Origin: an uncultured Pelagibacteraceae bacterium
Lineage (GTDB): Bacteria > Pseudomonadota > Alphaproteobacteria > Pelagibacterales > Pelagibacteraceae
Assembly (NCBI GenBank): GCA_902625125.1
Contig: CACOAB010000001.1
Span: 57,423-121,422 of the forward strand
Length of the DNA stretch: 64,000 nucleotides
Direction of reading: 5' to 3'
Below the pieces are notes generated by a model. The model made no database searches. It saw only the letters and a list, made by a program, of their open reading frames with translations, and was not told the origin of the DNA. Below, one piece after another: positions 35,034 to 48,872 of this stretch. The first letter of the stretch is position 1; every line of letters begins with the position of its first letter. Made by a program: the position numbers and the translations under genes.

Positions 35034-35605
35034 AAATATTTACCTATATTTTTTTTAGATATATCTTCAACCACTGCTTTAATGCTACTTTCATTTAGTT
35101 TGTCACCAGAAATATTCTCAATTACATTTGAAGCTATGTCCTCTGATATCTTTTGAATATCTGAAATAGATCCTTTTTTAAGTTCACTTATTTCTTTCTG
35201 AGCTTGTATAATTTCTTTTTCAATTTCTTTTTCAATTGCTTCCTTCTTTGATTTAATTTCTTTATCTAATGTGTTTTTAGATTCTATATGAATCTTAATA
35301 ACTTCTTTTTTTGCATCATCTAAAATCTTTTCATACTCTTTAAGTTTTAATTCAGATAACTCTTTAAACTTATTTGCATCATCTAAATCAACCTTAATTC
35401 TATTCTCTCGGTTATCTAAATTATTTTTAATTTTTGGAAGATAAAATTTTGCTATTGAAATGTACAAAATTGTAAAAACTAGAATTAACCAAAACGCCTG
35501 AGATGCCCAATATTTTGGATCCAGCTGAGGCATGCCAGCCTCAGCTGCAAACAAATTATTTTGTACAGCCGATATAGCTATAATAATACAATAGTATCCT
35601 CTCAT
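35030..35605 (-). CDS. atpG: ATP synthase Fo subunit b'
   Basis: AAEAGMPQLDPKYWASQAFWLILVFTILYISIAKFYLPKI; second b-type subunit. Confidence 0.9.
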   Translation of the reverse strand: MRGYYCIIIAISAVQNNLFAAEAGMPQLDPKYWASQAFWLILVFTILYISIAKFYLPKIKNNLDNRENRIKVDLDDANKFKELSELKLKEYEKILDDAKKEVIKIHIESKNTLDKEIKSKKEAIEKEIEKEIIQAQKEISELKKGSISDIQKISEDIASNVIENISGDKLNESSIKAVVEDISKKNIGKYL

Positions 35606-41403: not shown

Positions 41404-42536
41404 TGAAAAAGAAAATTGCAATTATTGGCGCTGGTATAGCAGGATTAACTTTAGCAAATTTAATTAAAAAATATACAGATCACGAATTTATGGTTTATGA
41501 ACGAGAGGAAAGTTTATCGCTTGAAGAGGGATACGGTATTCAATTAGCAACAAACAGTCTTAAAATTTTAAATCAAATAAGTTTTGATAAAATAAACAAT
41601 GAGAAAATTTTTCACCCAAAAACAATTGATTTTTACAGCATACAAAACAAAAAAATATGTGATTTAAATTTATCTAAGTTTAATAGCCCTGACGCAAAAT
41701 ACACAACACTTCAAAGATCTACTTTAATCGAATTTTTGAAAGAAGATATCTACACACAACATTTAAGATTTGGAAAAAAAATAAAAGAAGTTTCTGAACT
41801 AAAAGACAAAGTTCTTATCAAATTTGATGATAATACAAATGATTTAGTAGATTTCGTTGTTGCCGCAGATGGAATATTTTCAAACACTAGGTCATTTTTT
41901 GAAATAAAAAAAAATGAGCCAAGATTTAAAAAAGCTATTGCAGTAAGAGTAATTTTAAATTCAAAATCTGAATTTGATATAAATGAAGAAAATATAAGTT
42001 TAATGCTTGGAAGCAATAGTCATATTGTTCTATATCCAATAAATAAAAAAAAAGAACTTAATATGGTTTGTATAATGAGATGTAAAAAATATGAGCCTGA
42101 TAATGTCAAACAGTTAGTTCAAGAAATAGTTTTAAAACAAAATCCAAAATTAAAAAACATATTTGAGAATGAAACAAAAACATGGCCTTTATATTTTACT
42201 CCAAAAATTATGCCCTCTTCTAATAAAAAGGTATTTTATATTGGAGACGCTTTTAATGGATTTTTGCCAACACTCGCACAAGGTGCTGGACAGTCTATAG
42301 AAAGTGCTTTTGAAATATTTAATTTACTGACAAAAGATAAGCTTGATAAAGAAAATAACTATTTTGAAATTAGATCAAAAAGGGCAAAAATCATAAGAAA
42401 TAGATCAAATTTTAATTTCTTCGCATTTCACTTCTCAAGCAAAATTATGCAAAATATAAGAAATTTATTTTTGAAGTTTTTGGTAAAACGTAGATTTTTT
42501 GTAAAAAGTTATTTAGGTAAAGTTTATAAGAATTAG
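41403..42536 (+). CDS. FAD-dependent monooxygenase (UbiH/PHBH-like)
   Basis: IAIIGAGIAGLTLANLIKK, FVVAADGIFSNTR, YIGDAFNGFLPTLAQGAGQSIESAF. Confidence 0.85.
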   Translation: MKKKIAIIGAGIAGLTLANLIKKYTDHEFMVYEREESLSLEEGYGIQLATNSLKILNQISFDKINNEKIFHPKTIDFYSIQNKKICDLNLSKFNSPDAKYTTLQRSTLIEFLKEDIYTQHLRFGKKIKEVSELKDKVLIKFDDNTNDLVDFVVAADGIFSNTRSFFEIKKNEPRFKKAIAVRVILNSKSEFDINEENISLMLGSNSHIVLYPINKKKELNMVCIMRCKKYEPDNVKQLVQEIVLKQNPKLKNIFENETKTWPLYFTPKIMPSSNKKVFYIGDAFNGFLPTLAQGAGQSIESAFEIFNLLTKDKLDKENNYFEIRSKRAKIIRNRSNFNFFAFHFSSKIMQNIRNLFLKFLVKRRFFVKSYLGKVYKN

Positions 42537-43606
42537 ACTTTAGTTTCATTGATAAATTTTTGTCTTAAGCTATCAATTACAACAGCGGATCCATTAATTT
42601 TACAATGCCAATAAGTCCAACCATTACAGCTTTCAGCTCCCATAATTGTTGCTGCCACTTTATGAATAGAACCCTCTGACTCTTTATATTTAATACTTCC
42701 ATCAGCCATAATTTTAGCATTAATCTTCTTCTTTGGATCAAATAGGGTAGTGCCTGGCTTTAATATTCCCAATTCCACAAGAGAACCAAAAGGTATTCTT
42801 GGTTTTGATTTATTGTTTTCAACAGTATCTAAGTATTCATCCTCAATTACCTTAGTTTTTTTTATTCGTTCACTAGCAGCTTTAAAATACTTTTTGTCTT
42901 TTTCTATACCAAAGTATCTTCTTCCTAATTTTTTAGCTACCACTGCTGTTGTTCCAGTACCTATAAATGGATCAAAGATGGCATCACCTTTGTTTGTAGT
43001 AGCTAAAATAATTCTATGTAAAAGAGACTCAGGTTTTTGCGTAGAATGAATTTTTTTTCCGTTTTTCTTCAGTCTTTCTTTCCCACTACAAATGGGAAAT
43101 GTCCAGTCAGATCTCATCTGTAAGTCATCATTTAAGCACTTTAAAGATTGATAATTAAATGTATATTTTGATTTTTTATTTTTGGAAGCCCAGATAAGAG
43201 TTTCGTGCGCATTAGTAAAACGTGTTCCTCTAAAATTTGGCATGGGATTATTTTTTCTCCAGATGACATCGTTAAGCAGCCAGTAATCTAAATTTTGTAA
43301 GTGAAAACCTAGACGAAAAATATTATGATAAGATCCTATTACCCAAATACTTCCATTATCTTTTAGAATTCTTTTACACTCATTCAGCCAAGCAATACAG
43401 AATTCATCGTAATGTTTGAAACTATTAAATTGATCCCACTTATCATTTACTCCATTCACTTTACTTGCATCGGGTCGAGTTAATTTTTCTCCTATTTGCA
43501 TGTTGTAAGGAGGGTCAGCAAAAACTAAATCAAAAGACTTATCAGGAATTTTTTTTATTTCCTTTAAACAATCTCCATTAACGATTTGATCGGAAAGTTT
43601 TGACAT
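42533..43606 (-). CDS. ccrM: CcrM-type adenine-N6 DNA methyltransferase (GANTC)
   Basis: NGDCLKEIKKIPDKSFDLVFADPPYNMQIGEKLTRPDASKVNGVNDKWDQF, FDPFIGTGTTAVVAKKLGRRYFGIE, C-terminal extension; ATG at 43606 preferred over TTG at 43618. Confidence 0.94.
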   Translation of the reverse strand: MSKLSDQIVNGDCLKEIKKIPDKSFDLVFADPPYNMQIGEKLTRPDASKVNGVNDKWDQFNSFKHYDEFCIAWLNECKRILKDNGSIWVIGSYHNIFRLGFHLQNLDYWLLNDVIWRKNNPMPNFRGTRFTNAHETLIWASKNKKSKYTFNYQSLKCLNDDLQMRSDWTFPICSGKERLKKNGKKIHSTQKPESLLHRIILATTNKGDAIFDPFIGTGTTAVVAKKLGRRYFGIEKDKKYFKAASERIKKTKVIEDEYLDTVENNKSKPRIPFGSLVELGILKPGTTLFDPKKKINAKIMADGSIKYKESEGSIHKVAATIMGAESCNGWTYWHCKINGSAVVIDSLRQKFINETKV

Positions 43607-43611
43607 TTTTA

Positions 43612-43683
43612 GATTCAACCCGAAATTGAATCCAGGGTCAAACGTTTTTGATGAAAAAATGAGTCCTCTTGTGTTTGAGATTC
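43612..43683. promoter_or_regulatory. GANTC cluster in the ccrM leader
   Basis: GATTC 43612-43616, GAATC 43628-43632, GAGTC 43661-43665, GATTC 43679-43683; GATTCAA-N7-TTGAATC perfect inverted repeat at 43612-43632. Confidence 0.6.
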
Positions 43684-44244
43684 TTAGTTAGACAATATCT
43701 TGTGTACGGGTTTAAAACCTTTTCTATGATGTGAGGTAATACCAAATTTTTTTAAACCTTCTAAATGAGCCTTAGTTCCATAACCAAAGTTGCTTTCCCA
43801 AGCATAGTTGTTAAATTTTTCTGACAATTTAATCATTAGCTGGTCTCTAAATACTTTAGCAACAATAGAAGCTGCGCTAATAGATTTTATTTTTTCATCA
43901 CCATTAATAATTGTCTTAAAATTTGTTAAGCCCTTTGGAGCAAAATTACCGTCAATTAAAACTAATTCAGGATTAATTGTTAATTTTTTTACTGCTCTTT
44001 TCATTGAGAGTAGAGCTGCTTGCAGAATGTTCAATTTAAGTATTTCTTCAACTGAAGCTATACCGATTGCATAAGTCGAATGAAGCTTAATATGCCTAGC
44101 AATTTCGCCTCTTTTTTTGAATGATAATTTTTTTGAATCTTTTAGTAATTTTAAATTTACTGTTGTTTTAAGTATAACGGCTGCCGAAACCACAGGTCCC
44201 GCTAAACATCCTCTTCCAACTTCATCTACTCCAGCAGTGATCAT
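43684..44244 (-). CDS. rnhB: ribonuclease HII
   Basis: ITAGVDEVGRGCLAGPVVSAAVIL, KSISAASIVAKVFRD. Confidence 0.97.
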   Translation of the reverse strand: MITAGVDEVGRGCLAGPVVSAAVILKTTVNLKLLKDSKKLSFKKRGEIARHIKLHSTYAIGIASVEEILKLNILQAALLSMKRAVKKLTINPELVLIDGNFAPKGLTNFKTIINGDEKIKSISAASIVAKVFRDQLMIKLSEKFNNYAWESNFGYGTKAHLEGLKKFGITSHHRKGFKPVHKILSN

Positions 44245-47528: not shown

Positions 47529-47602
47529 TGGGGCATAGCCAAGCGGTAAGGCAGCGGTTTTTGATACCGCCATCCTAGGTTCGAATCCTAGTGCCCCAGC
47601 CA
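47529..47602 (+). tRNA. tRNA-Gln (anticodon TTG), CCA encoded
   Basis: cloverleaf: acceptor TGGGGCA/TGCCCCA, anticodon loop TTTTGAT, T-arm TTCGAAT, discriminator G then CCA. Confidence 0.97.
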
Positions 47603-47609
47603 TGGACAT

Positions 47610-48872
47610 ATGCTTGATACAAGTTTTAATTTCATTAAAAAAATTAAGAGAAGCTTTTTTCCATTTTATAAAAATAAAGAAATACAATTTGTTTTTAATA
47701 AACTCCAAGAAGGTTTTTCAAAAGACATTATAGTTGCAAGATTTGTAGGAGGCTGTGTCAGGAAATATTTAACAAATGAAGAAGTTGATGATATTGATAT
47801 AGCAACAATATTAAGCTCTAATGATATTAAGGAAAAATTTAAAAATACAAAATTTAAAGTTGTTGAGACCGGAGTTAGACACGGAACAGTTACTTTAGTA
47901 TCCAAAAAATTAAAACTTGAACTTACCACATTAAGAAAAGATTTGGAAACAGACGGAAGGCACGCAGAAGTCGAATATATTGATGATTGGCAACTTGACT
48001 CAGAAAGAAGAGATTTTACAATCAATTCTATTTATCTTGATATCAATGGAAAAATTTTAGATCCTCAAGGTGGCGTAACAGATTTAAAAAATAAAAATGT
48101 GAAATTTATTGGTGACCCACAAAAAAGAATAGAAGAGGATTATTTAAGAATAATAAGATTTATTCGATTTAAAATTATTTACGATTTTAAAGTTGAACCA
48201 ACTACTAGTAATGCCATTAAATTAAATTTAAATGGAATTAAAAAGATTTCAAAAGAGAGAATTCTAGTAGAGTTATACAAAATTTTAGATTTGAATAATT
48301 TTAAGAATTTAAATGAGAGTACTGACTTAAAAGAAATTTTTATTATTATTTTTCCAGAATTTAAAAATCTTGAGCGACTTAATAGATTAAATCAAATTTG
48401 TGATTATTCTCAAATTAACAGAAGTTTATTACTAGCCACTCTTCTAATAGACGAGAAAGATACACATGAGTATTTTGGCCATAAATATAATATTTCAAAA
48501 AACATCAAAGATAACCTTAATCTTTTTGCTAAAAGTCTTAAATTGATTAAAGAAAATAAAAATTTTTTCGCTAAAGATTTAGAAAAAAATATTTATTTAC
48601 ATGATAAAGGTTACTTAATTAATCTTAATATTCTTAATTTTACAACAAATTCAAAACTAAAATTCAAAGATTTTTCTGAGATATTAAAAAAAATACTTAA
48701 ATCTAAAACCCACAAGTTCACTATTGATGGAAAATATTTAATAGATAATGGTATGCAACAAGGCTCATTAATGGGTAAGGTCTTGAAAGAGATAGAAGTG
48801 GAATGGTTGAAAAATAACTTTCAAATATCTAAAGACAGAATCAAAGAAATAATCCGATCACACTCGAATTAA
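47610..48872 (+). CDS. CCA-adding enzyme / tRNA nucleotidyltransferase family
   Basis: RFVGGCVRKYLTNEEVDDIDIATIL, RRDFTINSIYLDINGKILDPQGGVTDLK, RIEEDYLRIIRFIRF. Confidence 0.92.
   Translation: MLDTSFNFIKKIKRSFFPFYKNKEIQFVFNKLQEGFSKDIIVARFVGGCVRKYLTNEEVDDIDIATILSSNDIKEKFKNTKFKVVETGVRHGTVTLVSKKLKLELTTLRKDLETDGRHAEVEYIDDWQLDSERRDFTINSIYLDINGKILDPQGGVTDLKNKNVKFIGDPQKRIEEDYLRIIRFIRFKIIYDFKVEPTTSNAIKLNLNGIKKISKERILVELYKILDLNNFKNLNESTDLKEIFIIIFPEFKNLERLNRLNQICDYSQINRSLLLATLLIDEKDTHEYFGHKYNISKNIKDNLNLFAKSLKLIKENKNFFAKDLEKNIYLHDKGYLINLNILNFTTNSKLKFKDFSEILKKILKSKTHKFTIDGKYLIDNGMQQGSLMGKVLKEIEVEWLKNNFQISKDRIKEIIRSHSN

Follow-up and report, generated by a model that had tools for sequence, protein, structure and literature searches.

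A predicted sigma-70 promoter with two GANTC sites in its core upstream of the methyltransferase gene ccrM in SAR11 bacteria

GANTC-controlled promoters and the ccrM locus

In Caulobacter, the timing of ccrM depends on CtrA and the GANTC sites of the gene are located in its transcribed leader. Two GANTC sites at this promoter and a proposed feedback by methylation have been described (PMC3973325 citing Stephens 1995; PMC10073500). The GcrA protein of Caulobacter binds GANTC in its methylated form (PMC3667746). It also binds region 2 of the sigma factor and promotes open complexes at methylated promoters (PMC7403470), and Caulobacter transcription starts that have a GANTC in the interval from −35 to −10 make up a timing cluster of their own, activated at 40–60 minutes (PMC4287350). 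Across Alphaproteobacteria, ccrM has been predicted to be a core GcrA target that was lost in Caulobacterales (Adhikari 2021; PMC7987155). Pelagibacter was among the 13 species of that study, and Pelagibacter DNA is methylated at GANTC (PMC9516812).

The region upstream of ccrM in SAR11 resembles the Caulobacter GcrA/CcrM promoters (mipZ, podJ and ctrA P1, with ftsZ activated by CcrM; PMC3667746, PMC3708114, PMC4287350) in that a putative promoter of the sigma-70 type carries GANTC between −35 and −10 and both GcrA and a close homologue of CcrM are encoded. It differs from them in that the target is ccrM itself, the second site overlaps the −10 element, the YGAKTCK context is lacking, the mRNA is predicted to be leaderless and dependence on GcrA is proposed. 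Unlike the CtrA-driven ccrM promoter of Caulobacter, it is found in bacteria with no recognisable CtrA and has its inner pair of sites in the predicted core promoter. Adhikari 2021 treated the same gene, proposed the same regulator and scored extended motifs without promoter architecture; what is added here is the −35 and −10 elements, the site positions, the SAR11 variant and the predicted leaderless start. This architecture fits and sharpens the earlier prediction and, because control of ccrM by GcrA had already been predicted (PMC7987155), the SAR11 case is a variant and not a new system.

The locus lies in a 64,000-nucleotide stretch of DNA (the window) from an uncultured member of the Pelagibacteraceae, and the nearest named relatives of this genome are SAR11 bacteria (Pelagibacteraceae, including HIMB058). 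The genes rnhB and ccrM are separated by 77 bp (Table 1). The ccrM product has CcrM as its top NCBIfam model, with 579 bits, which is under the 830-bit cutoff of that model, and its residues 6–349 align to the solved structure of a close homologue, Caulobacter CcrM (6pbd). An earlier note had preferred the ATG at 43606 as the start codon, and an ATG is present at that place in 127 of 127 relatives. The TTG at 43618 was rejected as a start; it is missing in about half of the relatives and coincides with the first three bases of the putative −10 hexamer.

The four GANTC sites listed in that note (GATTC at 43612, GAATC at 43628, GAGTC at 43661 and GATTC at 43679) are all present, and its estimate of well under one expected site agrees with the 0.12 expected in the 77 bp gap at the density of the window. 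The comparison with the background that it called for gives a window depleted in GANTC (102 observed, 171 expected from shuffles) and an enriched ccrM gap, with a probability of about 7 × 10−6 of at least four sites at the window's own density. Within 100 bp upstream, ccrM has four sites and every other of the 68 open reading frames of the window has at most one. No other four-site cluster in the window is as tight (72 bp; the next spans 338 bp), and an equally tight cluster arose anywhere in the window in 1.7% of trials in which 102 sites were placed at random, a figure that includes the correction for the whole window. The closest pair of sites in the window, a GATTC separated by 10 bp from a GAATC, is at 35280–35294, in a region read as a long coding sequence.

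Table 1. Features of the ccrM upstream region (positions in the window; conservation among distinct upstream sequences of the same genus)
Feature	Position	Strand	Remarks
ccrM, predicted adenine methyltransferase for GANTC, 357 aa, start codon ATG	42533–43606	−	N6_N4_Mtase and RAMA domains
Predicted transcription start, A of the ATG (leaderless)	43606	−	Fixed distance from −10 to start codon
GANTC site 2 (GAATC on gene strand), −10 to −6, overlaps −10	43612–43616	−	GANTC kept in 93/101
Putative −10 hexamer TTGAAT	43613–43618	−	Invariant in 101/101; weak for want of an A at −11
Perfect inverted repeat (GATTCAA-N7-TTGAATC) with ATTCAA/TTGAAT as its inner core	43612–43632	.	Core nearly ccrM-specific
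GANTC site 1 (GATTC on gene strand), spacer, −26 to −22	43628–43632	−	GANTC kept in 90/101
Putative −35 hexamer TTGACC	43636–43641	−	TTGAC in 101/101, exactly 17 bp from TTGAA
Outer GANTC site, about −59	43661–43665	−	Kept in 56/101
Outer GANTC site, about −77	43679–43683	−	Kept in 66/101
rnhB, ribonuclease HII, upstream neighbour, same direction as ccrM	43684–44244	−	Pfam RNase_HII

Putative promoter elements upstream of ccrM

The same-genus comparison set comprised 127 loci with 101 distinct upstream sequences of 120 bp, which are related and not independent; adjacent positions nonetheless vary freely at equal depth. The conserved columns begin with TTGAC (100%), three variable bases beyond the hexamer, GATTC (89–100%) and AATTT (100%), and end with three further variable bases, GTTGAAT (100%) and C (92%), beyond which the bases again vary. 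The distance from the −10 element to the ATG is 6 nt in 52 sequences, 7 nt in 48 and 8 nt in one. A sigma-70 promoter that drives a leaderless mRNA would require both the constant spacing of 17 bp and the constant distance from −10 to ATG. We therefore predict, from putative elements throughout, that the region is a sigma-70 promoter and that the ccrM mRNA is probably leaderless. The −10 element lacks an A at −11 and is weak, so the promoter should need help; the same lack explains why it went unlisted in a consensus promoter scan.

The two inner sites, for which the earlier note had asked for conservation in relatives, are kept in 89–92% of the same-genus sequences and the two outer sites in about 55–65%, so that the four sites, which had been taken together, are all present and unequal. 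Both inner sites are kept in 84 of the 101 sequences and neither in two; the spacer site and the C at −6 are better conserved than the adjacent spacer and discriminator bases. The description of the sites as lying in the leader does not hold for the inner pair, which falls in the predicted core promoter (the −35/−10 region), a place where methylation could affect transcription.

The perfect inverted repeat reported in the note (GATTCAA-CCCGAAA-TTGAATC) was verified. Its halves ATTCAA and TTGAAT are invariant in 101 of 101 same-genus sequences, with the flanking G at 89% and C at 92%, and the exact core occurs once in the window, while 80 of its 81 occurrences in 1.17 Mb of relatives are at ccrM. 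Across the class, the repeat is formed at five of the 25 distinct loci that carry two sites; its standing as a key feature is thus confined to the inner palindrome within the genus, and it was rejected as a general element, being missing from most of the class. The palindrome is more invariant than the methylatable bases, a pattern compatible with the binding of a second protein to this DNA.

Distribution of the layout and its restriction to ccrM

All 23 loci of the other SAR11 family have TTGAC[CG], 17 bp and CATATT (CATTAT in one case), 6–7 nt from ATG or GTG, and their second GANTC adjoins the −10 element. TTGAC followed by two GANTC sites was found upstream of ccrM in 27 of 69 other genomes of the class, a selected set in which this count is not a class-wide rate, and in 20 of 50 families, against 0.02 in shuffles; TTGAC followed by one GANTC was found in 40 of the 69, against 0.35. 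The 69 genomes were taken from an even draw of 192, 29 by the top CcrM match and 40 by hand. The pattern was picked after inspection of the data, and the excess (27 against 0.02, and also against the reversed control described below) is far beyond the effect of that choice. The commonest layout of the class has its first site at −27 to −25 and its second at −16, whereas in the window genus the second site, at −10, overlaps the hexamer and the pitch is 16 bp as against the usual value of about 11 bp. These two features, together with the predicted lack of a leader, would define the SAR11 variant of a class-wide promoter layout that is probably old. Of two sister-genus genomes, G275 has the usual class layout at ccrM, and G183 (locus L231) has the ccrM promoter TTGACA-17-TCTATT with no GANTC, though it encodes GcrA; the latter is a natural loss of the arrangement.

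The sites are particular to the ccrM locus. Among 80 named relatives, the mean number of GANTC sites per 100 bp upstream is 3.2 for ccrM and 0 to 0.46 for nine neighbouring genes; a tenth neighbour has 1.0, owing to a tRNA-Gln gene. The strict pattern TTGACN{2,4}GANTCN{5,12}GANTC has 52 matches in 61 SAR11 genomes, 39 of them at ccrM (assigned by comparing coordinates) and 13 elsewhere, and the reversed control has nine, so that in SAR11 the layout exceeds chance only at ccrM. A wide regulon with GANTC beside TTGAC was not supported: TTGACN{2,4}GANTC has 213 matches in 25 same-genus genomes, against 279 for the reversed control. Upstream of gcrA, in 16 loci from the window genome and its relatives (start misplaced in two), GANTC is absent from 120 bp, and methylation at the promoter of gcrA therefore does not seem to be part of the loop. 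The tRNA-Gln (TTG) gene of the window lies at 47529–47602 on the forward strand, flanked by an ispE-like and a pcnB-like gene. A GAATC in its T-arm is conserved as part of the tRNA and mimics a conserved promoter site; the conserved GANTC upstream of the open reading frame at 47610 is this T-arm and was rejected as a promoter site.

Regulators, predicted control and alternatives

The genome encodes GcrA outside the window (PF07750, E value 8 × 10−40), with the DNA-binding and sigma-interacting domains known from the Caulobacter protein and alignment to the solved GcrA structures 7ye1, 5yiu and 5yix. GcrA was detected in 78 of 101 relatives, mostly incomplete genomes. Searches of two near-complete SAR11 genomes (G062 and G065) and of eight class genomes (G124, G234, G238, G278, G218, G216, G155 and G196) gave no convincing GcrA, which is either undetected or truly absent there; this is the main weakness of a GcrA-dependent reading. 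Several genomes with no convincing GcrA match keep the double-GANTC ccrM promoter, and a strict co-occurrence of GcrA and the motif was not found, owing to the unreliable detection of GcrA. By inspection, the extended Caulobacter motif YGAKTCK fits none of the four sites on either strand, which speaks against control by GcrA, as does the GANTC-free ccrM promoter of the GcrA-encoding G183, although B. subvibrioides has no YGAKTCK preference (PMC7987155).

On balance, from sequence comparison, ccrM of SAR11 probably has a self-regulating sigma-70 promoter under the control of GcrA and CcrM, with two CcrM sites in its core, a leaderless mRNA and no involvement of CtrA. That the promoter carries targets of CcrM itself suggests that CcrM helps to control its own production. 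CcrM would methylate both core GANTC sites, and GcrA bound to sigma-70 RNA polymerase would read the methylated or hemimethylated GANTC at −26 and aid opening; site 2 is unlikely to be a GcrA contact, as −10 to −6 is single-stranded in the open complex. Passage of the replication fork would hemimethylate the sites and alter promoter output, and ccrM would feed back on itself without CtrA. We infer the transcription start, the methylation of the sites, the binding of GcrA and the sign of the feedback, for which activation is favoured; GcrA-dependent activation with hemimethylation by the fork as the timing signal is the most likely form. The earlier proposal of methylation-based self-regulation thus gains from the conservation of the sites, their confinement to ccrM, the presence of GcrA and the lack of a recognisable CtrA in relatives, but it had not named the likely reader, GcrA. 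With so precise a layout, which many families of the class share, short DNA templates can be used to test both the dependence on GcrA and the sign of the feedback.

An unlikely alternative is that another DNA-binding protein, a dimer, uses ATTCAA-N7-TTGAAT as its operator and covers the −10 element, with GANTC secondary (modulating binding, or shielded from methylation as in Dam-type switches). We know of no candidate binding protein. The complete invariance of ATTCAA/TTGAAT over 101 sequences, against 89% and 92% for the outer G and C, and the near uniqueness of the exact palindrome to ccrM speak for such an operator, but the other SAR11 family and most two-site members of the class lack the palindrome and yet keep GANTC, and the invariance of TTGAAT may reflect its −10 role alone. 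Distinctly unlikely is a direct action on RNA polymerase without GcrA, in which N6-methyladenine in and beside the −10 element would alter sigma binding or melting; the resulting feedback would be simple, with full methylation probably causing repression. Site 2 does overlap −10 in the window genus and the layout persists in genomes without detected GcrA; however, the first site, which has the most widely shared position, is a spacer site remote from melting, most relatives have GcrA (78 of 101 genomes, mostly incomplete), and the GcrA route is established in Caulobacter.

It is highly improbable that the inverted repeat acts as an RNA hairpin (an attenuator or a translational control) in a transcript begun upstream: the repeat could fold as RNA, but the region folds with no better energy than shuffles do (z = −0.44), there is no Rfam match, the conserved features match promoter geometry and conservation of the repeat stops at the genus. 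A chance cluster with no function is hardly credible. Intergenic DNA of Alphaproteobacteria is over-represented in GANTC (PMC3973325) and the whole-window probability given above is not vanishing, but the arrangement is conserved over 101 sequences, the order and 20 families and is lacking at neighbouring genes. Conservation refutes a chance origin for the inner pair; the outer two sites may have arisen by chance.

Control of SAR11 ccrM by CtrA was rejected, given the lack of a recognisable ctrA and of a CtrA box. No response regulator scored above the CtrA cutoff (NF045991) in 61 SAR11 genomes, compared with one of 14 control genomes, and no TTAA, as in the box TTAA-N7-TTAA, was seen on inspection of the 77 bp gap; Pelagibacter lacks ctrA also according to Brilli 2010 (PMC2877005). 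An overlap with LexA was likewise rejected, the alphaproteobacterial box GTTC-N7-GTTC being absent by inspection. SAR11 bacteria are among the most abundant in the sea, and a conserved promoter with CcrM sites is a possible answer to how methyltransferase timing is achieved in a reduced genome with no recognisable CtrA. As a tentative and rather doubtful extension, ccrM might be the main, perhaps the only, dedicated double-GANTC promoter of these bacteria, GcrA and CcrM making up an epigenetic loop that is almost closed and has the methyltransferase as its main output, with one site moved into the −10 element so that the mark would act at the opening of DNA at a leaderless gene. The OmpR-type regulators of SAR11 are PhoB-like and others, with their best scores on models other than CtrA. 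One OmpR-type regulator, whose receiver domain is degenerate and of which a single copy was scanned and scored below all NCBIfam cutoffs, recurs in other genomes of the genus (L168, L169, L170 and L174).
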